Shown: one piece after another, positions 3,212 through 25,728 of the stretch
Layout: each line of letters starts with the position of its first letter
Position numbering within the stretch: the stretch's first letter is position 1
Source of the DNA: Gammaproteobacteria bacterium TMED1
GTDB lineage: Bacteria; Pseudomonadota; Gammaproteobacteria; Pseudomonadales; Azotimanducaceae
Reading direction: 5' to 3'
Assembly (NCBI GenBank): GCA_002167855.2
Contig: NHBG02000020.1
Coordinates: forward strand, 86,947 to 150,946
DNA: 64,000 bases
The notes under the pieces: model-generated
Database searches by the model: none
What the model was told of the DNA's origin: nothing
What the model saw: only the letters and a program-made list of their open reading frames with translations
Position numbers and translations under genes: made by a program

Positions 3212-6200
3212 CTAAACAGCAGCCATGGCGACGGCCTCATCCATATTTACAGAAACTAAGCGGGAAACACCAGGCTCATGCATAGTAACCCCCATTAATT
3301 GCTCTCCCATCTCCATAGCGATCTTATTATGCGTTATATAAATGAACTGCACGGTGCGTGACATCTCTCTCACAAGCTCTGAGTAACGCCTAACGTTTAC
3401 ATCATCCAAAGGCGCATCTACCTCATCCAGCAAACAAAAAGGAGCCGGATTTAGCGCAAATATCGAAAAGATCATGGCGATAGCGGTAAGAGCTTTTTCA
3501 CCTCCAGAAAGCAGATGGATACTACTGTTCCGCTTACCAGGCGGTCGCGCCATTAAGCCCACACCGGTGTTCAGCAGATCATCTCCTGTCATCTCTAAGT
3601 ATGCATGCCCCCCACCAAATAATTTAGGGAATAATTGTTGTAACTTTTCATTAACTCGGTCAAAAGTTTCTTTGAACCGAGCCCGAGTCTCTAGGTCAAT
3701 CTTGCGAATTGCATTTTCCAGAGTTACCAGAGCTTCCTCTAAATCATCATTCTGAGAATCAAGATATTGTTTTCTTTCCAACTGCACTTTGAAATCATCT
3801 ATAGCCGCAAGATTGGGACTACCCAGCTTATGAATCCGATCATTCAAAAGAACGAGCTTTTCTTCCCAGTCCTGTTCGTTTGCCCCCTCTGGAAGATCTC
3901 CAAGCAATGTATCTAGGTCCATTTTATCAGCAGCTATCTGCTCCTGGATGGAAGTCCGACGAACTTCTAAGGTCTGATATTCGAGGCGAGCTTTCTCTAA
4001 CTCAATCCTATTCAATTCTAGAGATTCATCGATTTTTTGTCGTTCCCCCTCAGCTTCACGAAGTTTAAAGTCTATTGCCTCTGACTCCGAGCGAACTGAA
4101 GCAAGTTCCCTCTCTACCTCCAGTCGTTGTGCAAGATTTTCTTCAAGATCCTCTCTTAGATTTTTCTGCGGCATCTCACTATCTTTTATAGCCTCAGAGA
4201 GCTCCTCTCTCTTAGCCCCAAGTGCGATCTTTTGTTCTTTAAGGCGGACCATTCCACGCTGCGCTGAGGATATCTGGGTTTCTATAGACTCAACTTTAAG
4301 AGCTAATTCATGGGCAGAATCTCTATTAATTTCAGCTTCCCCTCGAGCCTCACCAAACCGGGTCTGAATTGTTTCTCGATCGGTGGTCAGCTGAAGTCTT
4401 AGTAATGCATCCTTCTCTATTCTATCGAGTGCAATTTGCAATGCGTTCTGGGCTTCAAGTAGCAAGTTTTTATCCGAACTCGCTTCTCTCTGACATGAAA
4501 CCATTTCCTGTTCCGCTCGAGCCAGATCCGTTTTTACCTGTTCTACTTGCTGTCGTTTAGCACCCAACTGGGCACGGGTCTCAGAGAGCGATTCCTGCTG
4601 CTTCGCTAATCTTACCCGTACTGATTCCCTATCAGTTTCAGACTGACTTAAAGCAATCAGATTTGAATCAAGCTCATTCGATCTATCTCTTACAGAGGCT
4701 GTGAGCTCACGCATCTCCACATTCAAGCGATCAAGTTCAGCTTGACGAAGAATCACACTACCCTCTTTATCAGATTCTCTATGCACTATGACCCAATTCT
4801 GACCAAGCCATATACCATTTTTTGTAATGATCGACTCACCTTCAGATAGCCTGTCACGAAAAGAAAGCGCTTCTTCTAACGACTCTGCTGTATAAACTCC
4901 ATGAAGTAAGTTTGAGACATTAATATTGCCACCTATACGGGAAGCCAATTGGTCTTTTGACGAATTTACTACCTCCAAGTCACTTGCAATTAATTTAAAA
5001 CTCCGTTCTGACGCATCAGTCAGTAACTCTTTTATGTCATCGAGATTTGACAAACAAAGCGCCTGCAAGCTTTCACCAAGAACCGTTTCCACAGCTTGAG
5101 CCCATTCATCTTCAACAGTAATTTGCTCGACTAATCTAGGACGCTCACTCAAACCATGCTTCATAAGCCATACTGACTCTGAGTCATCACTTTGACCTAA
5201 TGCAGCCTGTTGAAGTGCTTCAAGAGAGGCTCTTCGTCCAACCATTGACTGCAGGTCACTTCTCATATTGTCCAGCGCGTCCCCCTGACGCGCATTCTCC
5301 TCACGCTGGCTTTCTAAACGCTCCGATATATCCCCAAGTTCGGACTCAAGACGTAGAATCTGCTCTTCCTGTGTACCAAGCATGATCTCCAAAGGATCTA
5401 TTTCCTGTTCATGGGCGGTTTGATGCATCCGGTCCACATCATCTCTCAAAGATTGAATACGTTCATTTTGTCTCTCAATAGATAACTCAAGGTGGGCGAT
5501 TCGAGACTGCTGTACTTCACTTTCCTGTCGAGCTTCAGCAGCACTCTGGTTAAAAGCATCCCACGAGTCTTGCCAATCCTCCAAGTCTCGTTGTGCTGAG
5601 GCTAGTTCCTTACTTGAAAGTTTCTCTAGATCAAGAGCTTGACTGTGTTTCGGGCGGGTTTCCTTCAACTCAAAAGAGAGCTCATCCACAATCCTTAAAT
5701 CCCCTACCAAGTCTAGATCGACCTTATCAAAATCCTGAATAACTTTTTCCATGTTGACATGTAGCTGCCCTAAACGCTCAGTCTGGTATTTAATGCCATC
5801 CTCTAAACGAGCGATTTCAGTTCCGAAAGCGTAATATTTTTTCTGTATTTCATCTCTTGAATCCTCTAGCTCCAAGAGTTCATCTCGAAGCGTTTCAAGC
5901 TTTTTATCTAACCTACGTTGATCGGCGACAGCACTTTCTTTTAACGTCACGAGACGACTTATACCAGTATTCACTATCTGGGCTTCTTCTCCTATAGAAG
6001 ACCACTTTAAAACGTGAAGCTGCGCTCTAGTCTTCCTCTCCTCTTGGCGATGTTCCTTGTAACGTTTTGCCGCCCTCGCTTGCTTTTCTAAATAATGAAG
6101 ATTGCGATCAAGCTCTTGTCGTAGATCAGTCAACCTATCAAGATTATCCCGAGTATGGCTGATCCTGCGTTCGGTTTCCTTCCTGCGTTCTTTGTACTTA

Positions 6201-9329: not shown

Positions 9330-9994
9330 TACTGGTGCGGATTGTACTGTTTCGCCAAACTCCACGGAGAGACCCCAAAAAAGTAAAGAACCCGCAACCA
9401 CCACATCAGCAGAATTGTTCTCAATATGCCATTCTGTCGCCAACGTCGACTTGAGGTTATTACCTTGCTCGCAGAACAATGGGGCCTAGAAAACTTCCTT
9501 AGCCGCTTGCTCAACTCTAGATCCTCCATCAATGGAATATTTGCGAAGCCTCCAATCTCGTTAAACAGCGAGCGCTTAACAAACATCCCTTGGTCTCCTG
9601 TACAAATACCGGTAAATCGAGACCGCAAATTCATCATCCTTGCAATAACATTAAATATAATGGAACAATCATCAAAACCAACATCAAAACGTCCCCAAAC
9701 CCTATTTAGATTGCTCATATTCTCTAAAACTACATCCCAATCTTGGGGTAAGATCGTATCGGCGTGCAAAAACAGTAACTGGTCCCCCTCAGCACGTTCT
9801 GCGCCAGCATTCATCTGCGAAGCACGACCCTTAGTCCAGGAGAGTATGGTCACATCATATTGACGAGCAATACCAATAGTTGAATCCTCGCTGCCCCCAT
9901 CTACAACGATTACGTCATAACCAACTAACGATTGGAGTATTTTTTCAATACGATGTGCTTCATTTAGAACAGGAATTACAATAGTGACATCCAC
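9329..9994 (-). CDS. Family 2 glycosyltransferase, rSAM/selenodomain-associated transferase 2 (TIGR04283-like)
   Basis: MDVTIVIPVLNEAHRIEKIL...VIVVDGGSEDST...GRASQMNAGAERAEGDQLLFLHADTILP...GDQGMFVKRSLFNEIGGF...MEDLELSKRLR. Confidence 0.88.
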   Translation of the reverse strand: MDVTIVIPVLNEAHRIEKILQSLVGYDVIVVDGGSEDSTIGIARQYDVTILSWTKGRASQMNAGAERAEGDQLLFLHADTILPQDWDVVLENMSNLNRVWGRFDVGFDDCSIIFNVIARMMNLRSRFTGICTGDQGMFVKRSLFNEIGGFANIPLMEDLELSKRLRKFSRPHCSASKVITSSRRWRQNGILRTILLMWWLRVLYFFGVSPWSLAKQYNPHQ

Positions 9995-10006
9995 AACTAA
10001 CGAAAA

Positions 10007-10969
10007 CTAGCTCAGAGCACCACTACAGCTGCTTCCCTGACCTGCTGTGCAACCATAGCAGTGCTCACCAGTAGCTATATCCACACCAGCCAAATCAATC
10101 TTCAGTAACTCACTCAAATGGGTCCTAGGCTTATCACTCACGATGAGAGGCATTAACAGCATCTGGTTAAAATCGCAGTCATAAACATAGCCCTGGTAAT
10201 CTACACTTATCAAAGAACGACACATAACAGTCTCAAGATTTTCTTGGGAAAAAGATCCCCGCAGTAAATTCATATACTCAACATAATCACCTTTCGCCAG
10301 CAGACGCGCTCCAAAACGACTAATAGGCATATTCGCTAAAACATAAAGCTCGTTAAAGGCGATACCATGCTCCGCCCATAAGATTCGCCTATAATCCCGT
10401 TTTAATTCTTCTTGCGGGGGCGGAAGCACCGGAGCATCAGGATTATAAACAAGGTTAAGCAGTAAGCCTGAGTCTGGGTTCCCGTAACCCAGTGCATTCA
10501 GTTTTTTTAAACCTGCGATACTGTCACGATACACTCCATTGCCGCGCTGCCGGTCGACATTCTGCTCTGAATGACATGGCATCGACGCAATGACAATAAC
10601 CTCATGCTTTGCGAGAAACTCTGCCAAATACTCGTAACCTTTCTCCTCTAGGATAGTGGGATTACAGCGATCCATGACCCGCACCCCCATTTTCGAAGCT
10701 GCCTCAACAAGATAGCAAAAGTACGGGTTCATTTCCGGAGAACCACCCGTCAAGTCCAACGTATCGATTTCTTTTATCGATAAATAATCTAGAACCACGT
10801 TGATAGTCTCACGATCCATCAACTCAGTGCGCGTGGGTCCTGCATTGACATGACAGTGTGTACAACTAAGGTTACAAAGATACCCCAAGTTAACCTGAAG
10901 AGTCTGAAGCACATCCCTCCGAATAGCTGGAAAATCTGTTTGCAGCAAAAGTGGTCTGGTATCCTGCAT
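10007..10969 (-). CDS. arsS: Arsenosugar biosynthesis-type radical SAM protein ArsS (rSAM/Cys-rich, TIGR04167-like)
   Basis: 320 aa; radical SAM CNLSCTHC motif, LDLTGGSPEMNPYF, C-terminal HCYGCTAGQGSSCSGALS Cys-rich tail. Confidence 0.85.
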   Translation of the reverse strand: MQDTRPLLLQTDFPAIRRDVLQTLQVNLGYLCNLSCTHCHVNAGPTRTELMDRETINVVLDYLSIKEIDTLDLTGGSPEMNPYFCYLVEAASKMGVRVMDRCNPTILEEKGYEYLAEFLAKHEVIVIASMPCHSEQNVDRQRGNGVYRDSIAGLKKLNALGYGNPDSGLLLNLVYNPDAPVLPPPQEELKRDYRRILWAEHGIAFNELYVLANMPISRFGARLLAKGDYVEYMNLLRGSFSQENLETVMCRSLISVDYQGYVYDCDFNQMLLMPLIVSDKPRTHLSELLKIDLAGVDIATGEHCYGCTAGQGSSCSGALS

Positions 10970-14265: not shown

Positions 14266-15051
14266 ATGTCTCTGACCGATAATACATCTAGTGAGCAACA
14301 GATTAGTGAGGTAAAAATGAAAGAAAAAGAATTTGATATACAAACCCCTGATGGATTAATGACAACTTTCGTGACAGTTCCTGAAGTAAATGGACCTCAC
14401 CCTATAATACTTTTTTTAATGGATGCTCCTGGAAAGCGAGAGGAACTGCACGATATGGCAAGACGCTTTGCTACAGGAGGCTACTACGTGATGCTTCCGA
14501 ATCTGTACTATAGGACCTCAAAAGATTTTGTCAGTGATTTTACCGAGGAATCCAGAGTCACTCAGCGACAACATATGGCAGCACTAAACAACCAAATGGT
14601 CATCGGAGATTGCAAAACTTTGATTCAATACTCTTTAGAAGATAAAGACGCTAGCGATGGACCGATTGGGTGCGTAGGATACTGCATGAGCGGTCCTTTC
14701 GCATTCGCTGCAGCATCGCAACTATCAACTCGGATTAGGGCCTCAGCATCGATTCATGGTGTCAACCTGTGTAACGATTCAAAGGACTCTCCGCACCTCA
14801 ACGCCCATAAAATTAAAGGCGAGATGTATTTCGCATGTGCGGAATACGATGACCATATTGAAAATACTGAGATTAAAGCGCTAGAGGATCACCTTAACAA
14901 GACTGATATTAAGTACCAGATTGAGTGGTACCCGGGATCTAAGCATGGCTTTGTTTTCCCTCAACGGTTGGGTATTTACGACAAAGAGTCCGCAGAAAGA
15001 CACTGGGAAAGAATGTTCGCACTGTTCAGCCGCAACCTCAGGACAGTTTAG
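14266..15051 (+). CDS. Dienelactone hydrolase family protein
   Basis: IILFLMDAPGKREELHDMARRFATGGYYVMLPNLYY...GCVGYCMSGPFAF...GSKHGFVFP; Cys nucleophile in GYCMSG. Start may be a downstream Met (MKEKEFD). Confidence 0.85.
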   Translation: MSLTDNTSSEQQISEVKMKEKEFDIQTPDGLMTTFVTVPEVNGPHPIILFLMDAPGKREELHDMARRFATGGYYVMLPNLYYRTSKDFVSDFTEESRVTQRQHMAALNNQMVIGDCKTLIQYSLEDKDASDGPIGCVGYCMSGPFAFAAASQLSTRIRASASIHGVNLCNDSKDSPHLNAHKIKGEMYFACAEYDDHIENTEIKALEDHLNKTDIKYQIEWYPGSKHGFVFPQRLGIYDKESAERHWERMFALFSRNLRTV

Positions 15052-16112
15052 GCTAGAACTGCAACGCTTTTGGTTTGAGCAAATATTTTCATACCAGGTT
15101 TCAACTTCAGATTGTCAGCAGACCTGCGGGTAATCCTTGCCAAAATTGCCGTGTCTCCAGCCTTTACTTTTACCATAACCTCTGGAGTGTTTTCCCCAAA
15201 GACCTGATCGACCGTAGTAGAAAAAATATTTAGGATACTTGTATCTGTTTGGTGTGCTAATGTCAGACTGACATCCCTTGCGGGAATTCTAAGTCGTACA
15301 TCCCTACCCACTTCTAATTTTTTTCCCGGAACGAGTACTCGACCAAAAGATGATTCTAATATTGTGAGTTGATATTTTGAATCGTAATCTCTTACTTTTG
15401 CTCTTATGATTGATTCTGCCTCAGCACCCTGTGCCAGCGGGAGCTCGACTCGCGTTAACACGTCTGCTATCGGACCAGAAGAAATAATTTTCCCATCATC
15501 CATTAACAAGAGATGGTCCGCCAACCGGGCGATCTCATCTCGATCATGACTCACATAAATAATTGGCATACGTAGATCACGATTGAGCACCTCAATATAG
15601 GGAATAATCTCTAACTTCCGATCTAGATCCAATGAAGCTAGGGGCTCATCCATCAAGAGCAAACGGGGGCTGGCCAGAATCGCCCGTGCAATAGCAACCC
15701 TTTGCTGTTCTCCGCCCGATAAAGTGGCCGGATATTGATCCATTAGGCCACTGATCCCCAACAAATCGATAATTGTGCCCATCGATAACCCATGACCTTT
15801 TGGGACTCTGGATAGTCCATAATTAAGGTTGTTCTTTACAGTCAGATGAGTAAATAAGTTGGATTTCTGAAAAATATAACCAACCATACGTTTATGAGTT
15901 GGTATAAAAGTAGCTGTATCTTGCCAAATCTGATCACCAATTCTTAGATGACCTTTGGGAAAATGATCCAAACCTGCAATCGCACGCAATAACGTTGTTT
16001 TTCCGCATCCCGAGGGCCCAAACAATCCTGTTATACCACTTTCTGGAATTGCTATATCAACTCCTAGGCTAAATCTGCCTCGATAAATGTCAAAACGTGC
16101 AGAAATACTCAT
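15048..16112 (-). CDS. modC: Molybdate ABC transporter ATP-binding protein
   Basis: GPSGCGKTTLLRAIAGL, LSGGEQQRVAIARAIL, LLMDEPLASLD, C-terminal TOBE/mop-like domain. Confidence 0.92.
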   Translation of the reverse strand: MSISARFDIYRGRFSLGVDIAIPESGITGLFGPSGCGKTTLLRAIAGLDHFPKGHLRIGDQIWQDTATFIPTHKRMVGYIFQKSNLFTHLTVKNNLNYGLSRVPKGHGLSMGTIIDLLGISGLMDQYPATLSGGEQQRVAIARAILASPRLLLMDEPLASLDLDRKLEIIPYIEVLNRDLRMPIIYVSHDRDEIARLADHLLLMDDGKIISSGPIADVLTRVELPLAQGAEAESIIRAKVRDYDSKYQLTILESSFGRVLVPGKKLEVGRDVRLRIPARDVSLTLAHQTDTSILNIFSTTVDQVFGENTPEVMVKVKAGDTAILARITRRSADNLKLKPGMKIFAQTKSVAVLA

Positions 16113-16789
16113 GACGCCACCACTTTAAAACCGCGATTACGATATACCAGAGTTAAAATCAGAAATGATAGAAGTAATAAAACGCCAGAGAGTAAATGCG
16201 CTTTGTTGTAATCCAGCATCTCAACATGATCATAGATAGCAATCGAGACCACTTGTGTCTCCCCTGGTATATTGCCACCAATCATAAGCACCACACCAAA
16301 TTCACCCAGAGTATGGGCAAAACCAAGGACTGATGCAGTCACAAAAGCCGGCCTAGCCAGCGGGACTGCAACTGTAAAGAATCGATCTAATGGTGAAGCC
16401 CCTAAAACTGAAGCGGCTTCTAATCGAGAAACTCCGACATTTCGGAAACCATCCTGTAACGGCTGGACCACAAATGGCATGGAATAAAGTACCGATCCTA
16501 TAACAAGTCCTGGAAAGGTAAAAGCTAGAGAACCTATACCTACTGATGAGCTCAAGGTCCCAATAGGACCTGAAGGACTGAGTCCAATCAGAAGATAAAA
16601 TCCCAATACAGTTGGTGGAAGGACAAGTGGCAAAGCCACTATAGCCTCAATCAAAAATTTAAAGCGCCACTTGCTTCTGGACAACCACCAAGCAAATGGT
16701 GTCCCGAACAAAAGTAGAATTAGGGTGCTTATAAAAGCCAGTTTTACAGTCACAAATAATGCTACGATATCAGCTTCTGTAAACATCAT
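16109..16789 (-). CDS. modB: Molybdate ABC transporter permease
   Basis: ALPLVLPPTVLGFYLL, ARPAFVTASVLGFAHTLGEFGVVLMIGGNIPGETQVVSIAIYD; 4-nt overlaps with both modA and modC. Confidence 0.93.
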   Translation of the reverse strand: MMFTEADIVALFVTVKLAFISTLILLLFGTPFAWWLSRSKWRFKFLIEAIVALPLVLPPTVLGFYLLIGLSPSGPIGTLSSSVGIGSLAFTFPGLVIGSVLYSMPFVVQPLQDGFRNVGVSRLEAASVLGASPLDRFFTVAVPLARPAFVTASVLGFAHTLGEFGVVLMIGGNIPGETQVVSIAIYDHVEMLDYNKAHLLSGVLLLLSFLILTLVYRNRGFKVVAS

Positions 16790-17517
16790 GGGGTTAGGTA
16801 TCCATGGTTTTTAATAATGGCTTTCCCCTCACTAGACTGAAGAAACGTCATAAACATTCTCGCTGCTAGCTTTTCCTGTAACAACACGGCCTGCTGTTGT
16901 ATTGCGGAGTAATGACTATCGGGCACTAAATAATAGGTCCCTTCTCGATTTATAGCTTGAGCTTTCGCAACTAACCCTAACTGTGCACTCTCAGTAGCAA
17001 CAAAATGGAAAGCTTGACTAATATTTTCGCCCCGTACTAGCTGTTTCTGAATATTATCCCACAACCCCAAATAGCTGAGGTATTCCATCGCGGCACGACC
17101 GTAAGGAGCTAATTTTTCGTTAGCAATAGCGAAATGACGAAACTCCATCTCTCTCAGTGCTATATCCACATCAATAGATTTTTTTGGGCTCCATAAGACA
17201 AGCTGACCAACAGCATATGTAAACCGTGTACCTGGTACAGAGAGTAATTCCGTTTCTAATTTTAGTGGCCGCACCAAGTCAGCTGCGAGAAAAATATCAT
17301 AAGGAGCACCATTAACTATTTGTGCATATAGCTTACCCGTTGAGGCATAGCTCATTATTACCTCGTGGCCAGTTGTTTGAGTGAATACCCTGCTGAGAGG
17401 AACAGATACTATTGAAAAATTACTTGCGACTGCGATCCTAACTTCTTCTGCCCAAACGTATGGAGTAACCAATAGAAAGCATGAACTGAGAAGTAAAACT
17501 CTCATATCTTTATACAA
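16786..17517 (-). CDS. modA: Molybdate ABC transporter substrate-binding protein
   Basis: Signal peptide then EVRIAVASNFSIV...YASTGKLYAQIVNGAPYDIFLAADLVRP...IANEKLAPYGRAAMEYL. Confidence 0.92.
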   Translation of the reverse strand: MYKDMRVLLLSSCFLLVTPYVWAEEVRIAVASNFSIVSVPLSRVFTQTTGHEVIMSYASTGKLYAQIVNGAPYDIFLAADLVRPLKLETELLSVPGTRFTYAVGQLVLWSPKKSIDVDIALREMEFRHFAIANEKLAPYGRAAMEYLSYLGLWDNIQKQLVRGENISQAFHFVATESAQLGLVAKAQAINREGTYYLVPDSHYSAIQQQAVLLQEKLAARMFMTFLQSSEGKAIIKNHGYLTP

Positions 17518-18821: not shown

Positions 18822-18934
18822 AGTTCAAGAAGGAGTACAGTTAAAATGTTAAATAAGTATAAGAGTGCTTATTTGTAAAAAAGTAGTTTAGTACTCGTAT
18901 CCCTACCTAATTATGTCATAGAATATTGACAGTT

Positions 18935-19031
18935 CCTTGGGGGTGGTCAACACCTGAGATGCTACACGAGCAGATTTCCCTGTAGTAAACCCCAGAACCT
19001 GATCCGGTTAATGCCGGCGTAGGAAAAGGAT
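18935..19031 (+). promoter_or_regulatory. TPP (thiamine pyrophosphate) riboswitch
   Basis: ccttgggggtggtcaacaCCTGAGAtgCTACAcgagcagatttcccTGTAGtaaaccccagAACCTGATCCGGTTAATGCCGGCGTAGGaaaagg: CTGAGA box, variable stem CTACA/TGTAG and the highly conserved AACCTGAT..GGTTAAT..C.GCGTAGG core. Confidence 0.95.
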
Positions 19032-19090
19032 GTAAGTGCCATCTACCACCTCGTCACATACCGGGTCTTTTCTAACAGTTGGAGAGACTC

Positions 19091-21184
19091 ATGAAAATAT
19101 TGCTAGTAGTCCTGCTCGTAATGAGCATCCCGAAAACCCTTGGTGAAACCATTGACGAAATAGTGGTAACAGCAGTCTTACGCGATACCGAACTTTCAAA
19201 ATTGCCAGCAAGTATTACGGTATTAACAGAAGAAGATATCCAATCTATACAAATACAGCATTTCGATCAGCTGTTAGGTATAGCACCTAACGTTAATTTC
19301 GCATCAGGTGCATCCAGAGGCCGTTTTGTTCAAATACGCGGTATCGGAGAAAGAAGTCAGTTTAAAGATCCTCTTGATACATCAGTTGGATTAATTATCG
19401 ATGGAGTAGATTTTAGCGGGATAGGTCTTGCTGGAACTTTATTCGATATTCGACAAATTGAAATACTTAGGGGGCCTCAAGGAACAGCGTTTGGGTCAAA
19501 TGCTTTAGGGGGTCTAATACTGCTTGAGTCAAATCCACCTTCAGATGAGTTTGAAAGTATGTTGTCCTTTGGTACGGGGACTTACAGTAACGCAGATTTT
19601 GGGGCTGTAATCAGTGGGCCTATTTCGCAAACCCTAAGCGGAAGGTTAGCTTTTCAACGATTTACAAGTAATGGTTTTATCAAGAATAACTTTCTGTCGA
19701 TAGATGATTCTAACAATTTCGATGAACAAATGCTCAAAGGGAAAATTCGCTGGCGTGCAACCGAAAAGACGCGGGTAGATGTTACGTTATCATCTTATGA
19801 TACCGATAATGGCTACGACGCTTTCTCTTTGGACAATACTCGATATACAGACTCGGACGAACCAGGGCACGATCGGCAGCAGTCTAATGCTCTTGCCTTC
19901 AACATCGTAAATGAATCAGACCTATTTACTTTCAACGTCAACCTTTTCCGCGAAGATACTGATCTTGAATATGGATTTGACTGGGACTGGTCCAATTTCG
20001 ATAAAAGCGGTGTTCGTGGTGGCGAAAATAATGAGAGGCAAAGGGATAGCTATGGCTTAGATATTCGAGTTTCTTCCAGAGGAAAAGCGGAACTTCCGAA
20101 TGATATAAACTGGGTATTGGGGATGTACTCGTATCGGAAGGACGTTGACCTTAATTATAATGACCACTGGGAGGACAGTTGGGGTTTATACCCTAGCGTT
20201 TTTTCGAGCGAATTCAGCACAAAGAGACTTTCTTTTTATAGTCAATTCAATTGGCTAGCGCGAGAACAACTTAGTCTCGCTGGTGGGGTCCGTTGGGAGA
20301 CCTACGATAATTCTTATCTTGATAGTGCCGGAGTGAATGCTACTCCAACAGACAGCTCTTGGGGTGGAAGACTCAGTATAGAATACGCTCTCGAAGATCT
20401 AATAATGTACGGCATGATTAGTCAAGGTTATAAAGCTGGGGGAATCAATGGGCAGGCTGCGGCTGGGATCGGGACAGGGACGAATTTGGAAATCGCCAGC
20501 TTCCTCAACCAACGACTCGAATTCCAATCAGAATCTTTGCTTAGCTACGAAGCAGGTGTACGCGCTCAACAGGAACGCCTGTCCTGGTCACTGTCTATAT
20601 TTCATATGGAAAGGAAGGCCATGCAGGCCAAAGCTTGGATCCTGTTTCCCCCTGCAGACTGGAAATCTTACCTCGATAATGTGGACAAGGGCACTAATAG
20701 CGGCCTGGAATTTGATCTAACTTTTCGGGCCACTGACAACCTTTCGCTTACCGCAAGTCTTGGTTTACTCGAAACAAAGCTTGGAAATCTTACCGTACAG
20801 GACATTGATACCTATCCTGCAACGCCAGTAGAGAAAACAAACCGAGAACAGGCACACGCACCTGGGTATCAGTACTCGGTTTCAGCGAGCTATCTATTTT
20901 CAGAGGCAGTATCTTTTAACTTGCAGCTAGAAGGTAAAGACAAGTTTTATTTCTCGAATGGGCATGATATTCAATCGGATTCTATGAATCTCGCTCATGC
21001 AACATTAAAATATCTGTTAGAACAATATGAGTTGTCCATATGGGGTCGAAACATACTTGATGAAACATATAAGACGAGAGGTTTCTACTTTGGAAATAAC
21101 CCCTTGAATGGATGGATAAATGAGCCCTATTATCAATTCGGGGAACCAAGAACTCTTGGTATTACGGCCCGAATTCATTTTTAG
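19091..21184 (+). CDS. TonB-dependent outer membrane receptor, probable thiamine (or precursor) receptor
   Basis: Signal peptide, plug domain (DEIVVTAVLRDTELSKLPASITVLTEEDIQS; RGPQGTAFGSNALGGLI), terminal ARIHF. ORF call starts at TTG 19079, but ATG at 19091 has an SD-like ggagag. Downstream of a TPP riboswitch. Confidence 0.9.
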   Translation: MKILLVVLLVMSIPKTLGETIDEIVVTAVLRDTELSKLPASITVLTEEDIQSIQIQHFDQLLGIAPNVNFASGASRGRFVQIRGIGERSQFKDPLDTSVGLIIDGVDFSGIGLAGTLFDIRQIEILRGPQGTAFGSNALGGLILLESNPPSDEFESMLSFGTGTYSNADFGAVISGPISQTLSGRLAFQRFTSNGFIKNNFLSIDDSNNFDEQMLKGKIRWRATEKTRVDVTLSSYDTDNGYDAFSLDNTRYTDSDEPGHDRQQSNALAFNIVNESDLFTFNVNLFREDTDLEYGFDWDWSNFDKSGVRGGENNERQRDSYGLDIRVSSRGKAELPNDINWVLGMYSYRKDVDLNYNDHWEDSWGLYPSVFSSEFSTKRLSFYSQFNWLAREQLSLAGGVRWETYDNSYLDSAGVNATPTDSSWGGRLSIEYALEDLIMYGMISQGYKAGGINGQAAAGIGTGTNLEIASFLNQRLEFQSESLLSYEAGVRAQQERLSWSLSIFHMERKAMQAKAWILFPPADWKSYLDNVDKGTNSGLEFDLTFRATDNLSLTASLGLLETKLGNLTVQDIDTYPATPVEKTNREQAHAPGYQYSVSASYLFSEAVSFNLQLEGKDKFYFSNGHDIQSDSMNLAHATLKYLLEQYELSIWGRNILDETYKTRGFYFGNNPLNGWINEPYYQFGEPRTLGITARIHF

Positions 21185-21193
21185 GAAGCTGCA

Positions 21194-21802
21194 GTGTTTG
21201 AACCGTTAGTCAGTCAGTTCCAATCAAGTTCTTTAATGGAACTGACTGCGGTCCTCTTCGCCTTAGCGTACCTCACTCTGGTAGTGAAAGAAAATATTCT
21301 TTGTTGGTACGCAGCGCTTATATCTACAATAATATTTTTAGTAATTTTCTGGCGCGTACAGCTATACATGGAGTCTGGACTCCAAATTTATTATATAGCG
21401 ATGGCGATCTATGGCTGGTACCAGTGGTCCCGAGGCGGGACCCAGCGTCATGGGATCACAATTACGACTTGGTCAATAAAGACTCACGCTTTGGCAGTTT
21501 TTGGAGTTTTACTAGCCACTTTGGCCTCAGGGCTTCTTCTTATCAAAACCAGTAACGCATATTTTCCTTTCCTAGATTCCTTTACGACCTGGGCGAGTAT
21601 CGTCACGACATTTATGGTTGCAAAAAAAATACTCGAAAATTGGATTTATTGGTTTGTTATAGACGGGATATCTATCTTTATATATTTAGATAGAGAACTA
21701 TATTTTACTGCTTTTTTGTTCGCGATATATTTAGTAATTGTAGTAATTGGATTTTTAAGTTGGCTGAAGGAGTACCGAAGCAAGGAGAGAAGGCCCGGAT
21801 AG
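21194..21802 (+). CDS. pnuT: PnuC-family transporter (probable thiamine transporter PnuT)
   Basis: 202 aa polytopic; LCWYAALISTIIFLVIFWRVQLYMESGLQIYYIAMAIYGWYQW, ENWIYWFVIDGISIFIYL; GTG start 9 nt after the receptor stop, in the riboswitch operon. Confidence 0.85.
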   Translation: MFEPLVSQFQSSSLMELTAVLFALAYLTLVVKENILCWYAALISTIIFLVIFWRVQLYMESGLQIYYIAMAIYGWYQWSRGGTQRHGITITTWSIKTHALAVFGVLLATLASGLLLIKTSNAYFPFLDSFTTWASIVTTFMVAKKILENWIYWFVIDGISIFIYLDRELYFTAFLFAIYLVIVVIGFLSWLKEYRSKERRPG

Positions 21803-24672: not shown

Positions 24673-25728
24673 TTGAATGTAATGACTGAACAAAAGCCCG
24701 AGGGCTATGATGTAGCGAATGTAGAGACGTGGGTTAAGGACCAGGTCTCGTCTCTCAGACCTCCGTTTATTTGGACCCAGTTACCAGGAGGACACTCCAA
24801 TCTCACTTACCAGATCGAGGATACCGATGGGACCATAGCGGTTATCCGTCGGCCTCCGCGAGGTAAACTGTTGCCCAAGGCACATGATATGTCGAGGGAA
24901 TGGTCAATCATATCAGCCTTGTTTGGTACCGACGTTCCTGTTCCAGAACCTATCGCATTTTGTGAGGACATTACTGTTACGGGAGCTTGGTTTTATATTA
25001 TGGGATTCGTCCAAGGAAGCCCTTTATACAATGCTAATGACGTCCGCGATTTGGTTCCCGAAGCTAACCGAAAAGTACTAGCGAATTCATTTATTGACAA
25101 GTTAGCAGCGCTCCATAATCTTAATCCTGATGAGATCGGGTTAGGCAACCTTGGCAGAAAAGAGGGGTATGTGGCTCGCCAGGTTAAGACATGGTATCAC
25201 TCGTGGACTTCTTCCTCTGAATCGGCACAGCTCGATGACTCCCGAGCACATGACTTGCGAAGGTTTTTCTTAGATAATCTGCCCGAACAGGATTTCGCTC
25301 GCGTCGTTCACGGAGATTATGGCTTCCACAATACGCTAGTGGGACCAGACAGTAGAATTGCTGCTATTGTAGATTGGGAAATCTCTACTCTGGGTGACCC
25401 TTTAGCTGACCTCGCATACGCTCTTATGTCATGGCAGCCTTCAGATGCCTCTTTACCAAAAAATCCCGATTCCATTACTGCGCAATCCGGATTCCCTCCC
25501 AGAGAATACCTAGCCGAACGCTATGAGAGCATTACAAACCAAGACCTCTCAAGGCTCAATTTCTACCTGGGGTTTAACCGCTGGAAGTCTGCGGCCATAG
25601 TCCACGGTGTTTATGCTCGCTACATGGAAGACCAAAAAAGTGCGGATGGTGTCGATCTAATAAAAATGAGGAGCGACATAATCAATAACCTTGAAGAATC
25701 GGAACGTATTATCAAAAGTTTACGCTGA
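24673..25728 (+). CDS. APH-fold phosphotransferase family protein (ACAD10/11-kinase-like, LvaA-like)
   Basis: FIWTQLPGGHSNLTYQI...VIRRPPRGKLLPKAHDMSREWSIISAL; ARVVHGDYGFHNTLVGPDSRIAAIVDWEISTLGDPLADLAYALMSW catalytic motifs. Confidence 0.88.
   Translation: MNVMTEQKPEGYDVANVETWVKDQVSSLRPPFIWTQLPGGHSNLTYQIEDTDGTIAVIRRPPRGKLLPKAHDMSREWSIISALFGTDVPVPEPIAFCEDITVTGAWFYIMGFVQGSPLYNANDVRDLVPEANRKVLANSFIDKLAALHNLNPDEIGLGNLGRKEGYVARQVKTWYHSWTSSSESAQLDDSRAHDLRRFFLDNLPEQDFARVVHGDYGFHNTLVGPDSRIAAIVDWEISTLGDPLADLAYALMSWQPSDASLPKNPDSITAQSGFPPREYLAERYESITNQDLSRLNFYLGFNRWKSAAIVHGVYARYMEDQKSADGVDLIKMRSDIINNLEESERIIKSLR

Follow-up and report, generated by a model that had tools for sequence, protein, structure and literature searches.

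What does a bacterium import through a TonB-dependent receptor and a PnuC-family transporter that are placed together behind a TPP riboswitch: thiamine itself, one of its precursors, a phosphorylated form of the vitamin, or nicotinamide riboside? We addressed this question for a stretch of 64,000 nucleotides (the window) from Gammaproteobacteria bacterium TMED1, in which the sequence-only reading had placed such an operon at 18935–21802. This span was correct to within a few bases, the aptamer starting at 18929. The analysis indicates that the locus is very probably an operon with which a marine gamma-proteobacterium, auxotrophic for thiamine, scavenges this vitamin.

The window was searched with Rfam models by cmscan, which gave a match to the TPP riboswitch (THI element, RF00059) at 18929–19042 on the forward strand with 66.8 bits (E 6.3e-11), above the gathering score of 54.3 bits. 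The match spans model positions 1–105, the full length of the model, and bears out the clear aptamer that had been claimed in front of the receptor. A search of the whole genome (2.16 Mb, 96.5% complete) found no other TPP match. By its covariance-model score, the leader at 18929–19042 is a TPP riboswitch, predicted to bind TPP and alter expression.

The gene behind the aptamer encodes a TonB-dependent receptor (19091–21184, +), as had been proposed, with Pfam matches to the Plug domain (PF07715, 1.1e-16) and the barrel (PF00593, 2.4e-23). The mechanically called reading frame begins earlier, at a TTG at 19079; however, the ATG at 19091 is preceded by GGAGAG and is thus most likely the true start. 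Read from the sequence, the N terminus resembles a signal peptide, and the stretch DEIVVTA resembles a TonB box. Orthologues with 76–59% identity lie under the same riboswitch in four related loci (L032–L035). Judged only by context, namely the riboswitch and the adjacent PnuT in relatives, the protein would be a thiamine receptor of the OMthi/omr1 type.

The receptor gene ends at 21184, and 9 nt separate its stop from the GTG start of the second gene at 21194, which encodes an inner-membrane transporter of 202 residues with seven predicted helices (21194–21802, +). Residues 13–192 matched PF04973 at 3.3e-49, placing the protein in the PnuC/PnuT family. The gene upstream of the operon, encoding a flavin monooxygenase, is on the opposite strand, and the MazG-like gene downstream is convergent, so the operon holds two genes. 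Further upstream, at 15048–17517 on the reverse strand, three genes with overlapping ends encode an ABC ATPase, a permease and a substrate-binding protein; the last matches ModA (TIGR01256), so this block looks like a molybdate ABC transporter.

The best NCBIfam name for the transporter was PnuC, and no NCBIfam PnuT model matched it. A search of the PDB with the single sequence gave no match, but a profile from an alignment of 19 relatives matched the nicotinamide riboside transporter 4qtn at 4.6e-15. An AlphaFold model (pLDDT 80.5) likewise had 4qtn as its sole good structural match (TMq 0.69). In the transporter tree, the protein fell in a mostly riboswitch-linked clade (support 99/97) with members from Shewanella, SAR86 and Microbulbifer, and 0.3–0.8 changes per site separate it from the closest of them. 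It thus groups with TPP-regulated PnuC homologues, and E. coli PnuC lies outside the clade on a very long branch, which makes the position of the root unsure. The profile search and the tree uphold the earlier reading of a PnuT-like transporter as largely right, and by context the protein is probably PnuT.

The arrangement recurs widely. Using the transporter as the query, we collected 80 related loci from named genomes, several of the loci being cut by contig ends. The receptor lies upstream of the transporter in 67 of the 80 and the aptamer is present in 66, a recurrence of the riboswitch–receptor–transporter order that is far from chance. The sequence-only reading was right that the operon in the window includes no thiamine kinase or pyrophosphokinase, yet 60 of the 80 loci carry an APH/ThiK-like kinase directly downstream of pnuT, and 44 have receptor, aptamer and kinase together. 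Nine genomes were inspected within the family to which the window belongs: eight have a TPP riboswitch followed by a reading frame of receptor size, and in the ninth (G012) the frames are unclear. One congener (G002) had no PnuT match because its contig ends about 2.2 kb past the riboswitch. In locus L060, a TPP aptamer pattern (5429–5473) lies directly before pnuT (6001) with no receptor in between. Most loci from other genera of the family (L016–L031) have a second PnuC-family protein, about 30% identical, with an APH-family kinase nearby on the opposite strand; the TPP riboswitch of each such genome is on another contig than this protein.

How the riboswitch might act was examined by folding the leader. 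The minimum free energy (MFE) prediction contains a hairpin over the ribosome-binding site, GGGTCTTTTC/GGAGAGACTC (19063–19090, +), referred to in the following as the SD hairpin. Its arms, GGGUCUUUUC (19063–19072) and GGAGAGACUC (19081–19090), cover the ribosome-binding site in the predicted fold, and its end abuts the ATG. An equivalent hairpin was present in the predicted MFE structures of five related leaders (L032, L033, L034, L035 and L036). Analysis of complementary stretches in the leader gave ACCGGGTC (19060–19067, +), which overlaps the 5′ arm of the hairpin, as the complement of the aptamer segment GATCCGGT (19001–19008, +). With eight pairs, seven of them Watson–Crick, the latter is a candidate anti-sequestor partner. 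The corresponding aptamer segment was the best complement in 24 of 29 related leaders and was overlapped in two more, and the base flanking the core covaries (T with A or G, A with T, C with G). On average, 6.9 Watson–Crick pairs formed in the best complementary stretch, versus 5.1 in shuffled leaders. The leader in the window is unremarkable when taken by itself, its complement being within the range of the shuffles (5 of 40 reach the same).

No terminator-like hairpin was listed between the aptamer and the ATG. This, together with the conservation of the SD hairpin, led us to reject transcription termination as the mechanism, and the covarying aptamer complement further favors translational control. 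Most likely, the riboswitch acts on translation through two mutually exclusive pairings, GAUCCGGU with ACCGGGUC in one state and the SD hairpin in the other. Folding with the anti-sequestor pairing forced did not yield a complete model of the ON state, since the SD region was still mostly paired in the predicted ensemble. The ON state is therefore poorly modeled, and although the alternative pairings are computed, the switch to translational control that they suggest is likely rather than proven. When TPP is scarce, the mRNA of the receptor–pnuT operon would be translated. When it is plentiful, TPP would bind the aptamer and lock GATCCGGT within it, leaving GGGUCUUUUC free to pair with GGAGAGACUC, so that the ribosome-binding site would be hidden and translation turned off.

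The ligand had been left open between thiamine, HMP and other precursors, with a check of the genome for thiC, thiE and thiamine kinase suggested. This check found neither ThiC nor ThiE in the genome itself or in six congeners, and no recognised thiamine kinase. Thiamine pyrophosphokinase (TPK) was absent from all 38 genomes searched. These absences come from profile searches of genomes that are 91–99% complete, and they agree across seven genomes. Taking the lack of both ThiC and ThiE as the mark of a thiamine auxotroph, the organism and its six congeners are auxotrophs. The genome does have ThiL, encoded beside nusB as is usual. Import of thiamine phosphates by a ThiB-type ABC system was considered and rejected, the only ThiB match in the genome being a partial one of 24 bits against a cut-off of 317. 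Among 38 relatives, thiC occurs in 10 and a PnuT of this clade (at least 44% identity) in 13, with zero overlap (Fisher p 0.008, not corrected for kinship).

Taken together, the likely route begins with the TonB-dependent receptor, which would move scarce thiamine over the outer membrane, powered by TonB. PnuT would pass it through the inner membrane by facilitated diffusion, and phosphorylation inside the cell, with ThiL as the last step, would trap it as TPP. The enzyme that makes thiamine monophosphate was not found in the genome, which has no recognised thiamine kinase or TPK, leaving the trapping step without a known enzyme.

We searched for this enzyme with a profile built from 28 of the kinases that lie in related operons. 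Four residues (H, D, N and D) are invariant among these, arranged as in APH kinases, and their NCBIfam matches include ThiK, below its cut-off, and also GntI. The profile does find clear kinases in relatives, among them some outside the operon (G038, 5.8e-45; G010, 4.6e-33), but its best match in the genome of the window was 5.7e-6 and those in the six congeners were no better than 3.6e-11. The model of ThiK itself reached at best 3.5e-11 in the genus. No kinase adjoins pnuT in the window or in the congeners, and these loci thus fall short of the complete riboswitch–TBDR–PnuT–kinase operon. An APH-family phosphotransferase of 351 residues is encoded 2.9 kb downstream of pnuT (24673–25728, +), and a close relative (L032) has an APH-like reading frame at a similar distance downstream (9383–10444). 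As a candidate for the missing kinase, the gene in the window was rejected: its relatives by profile are other APH phosphotransferases, not ThiK, and it scored 23.7 bits against the operon-kinase profile. Six SAR86 loci (L080, L082, L092, L095, L097 and L103) also have receptor and pnuT with no kinase next to pnuT; their genomes contain weaker APH matches to the operon-kinase profile, the best at 1.3e-17.

In one genome (G014), the PnuT branches with those of this genus and the kinase is kept in the operon, which makes loss of the operon kinase in the genus the likely history. The genus appears to have no recognised source of thiamine monophosphate, yet it keeps ThiL. Since ThiL needs this substrate, either an unrecognised kinase or import of the monophosphate would be called for. 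Our tentative explanation, to which we give slightly less than even chances, is that the genus lost its ThiK-like kinase and either uses a non-orthologous, unrecognised thiamine kinase or imports thiamine monophosphate for ThiL.

Import of a precursor, HMP or hydroxyethylthiazole (HET), for thiamine synthesis would fit the general observation that TPP riboswitches control precursor transporters too in other bacteria. However, ThiE, which joins the two halves of the molecule, is missing from this genome and the six congeners (an archaeal-type ThiN was outside the search), as is ThiC. Lacking these and TPK, the cell could use neither HMP nor HET, which makes precursor import very improbable and narrows the ligand to intact thiamine or its phosphate esters, one of which is likely what the operon transports. 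About equally improbable is a plain PnuC for nicotinamide riboside that came under a TPP riboswitch by chance. In favor of this, no other PnuC-family protein was found in the genome, and the transporter has PnuC as its best named family and shares PF04973 and the fold with 4qtn and E. coli PnuC. In contrast, its identity to 4qtn is about 20% by structural alignment, E. coli PnuC is far outside its clade (on the long branch), and that clade is missing from every relative bearing thiC. TPP control, and the receptors and ThiK-like kinases that co-occur in dozens of relatives, are at odds with such a chance placement; regulation, neighbors and clade all point to thiamine.

Less improbable than these two, but still unlikely, is that the operon imports thiamine mono- or diphosphate instead of free thiamine, in which case ThiL alone, or nothing, would be needed inside the cell. 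Monophosphate import would explain a genus that has ThiL without ThiE, TPK, ThiB or an operon-type kinase. However, the PnuC-family proteins characterised so far carry unphosphorylated compounds that are then trapped by phosphorylation. In its clade, the transporter normally comes together with a kinase, and the protein in the window is separated from its nearest relatives there by only the short distances given above. Free thiamine is the preferred ligand.

Operons of this type are already known, and only the kinase gap is unusual. The OMthi-pnuT-tnr3 operon of Bacteroides likewise has a TPP riboswitch, a TonB-dependent receptor and PnuT, but it includes tnr3, and Bacteroides often has thiamine synthesis as well (PMC5613172); here, both kinase and synthesis are missing. 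Thiamine transport in E. coli has been reported for the PnuT of Bacteroides, and in a synthesis mutant the loss of OMthi or pnuT raised the thiamine requirement (PMC5613172). Also similar are the gamma-proteobacterial riboswitch–TBDR–PnuT–APH kinase operons of SAR86, Porticoccaceae/SAR92, Microbulbifer and Shewanella (L037–L111). They resemble the window in gene order, riboswitch, homologous receptor and transporter and, where examined, the kind of SD hairpin, but most have an APH/ThiK-like kinase directly after pnuT, unlike the genus of the window. In marine surveys, a putative outer-membrane thiamine receptor of unclear specificity is counted as omr1 and reported as a B1 uptake gene of gamma-proteobacteria, a main one among those that the Cellvibrionales express (PMC12442306). 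By context, the receptor in the window is a candidate omr1. In other marine groups, ThiL and omr1 without synthesis genes have been read as salvage (PMC12236431).

The locus would explain how a marine bacterium that is unable to make B1 acquires it, the likely currency being the intact vitamin and not its precursors. With the kinase missing, B1 salvage has a well-defined gap that can be searched, and this gap may be filled by an unrecognised enzyme or by import of the phosphorylated vitamin.
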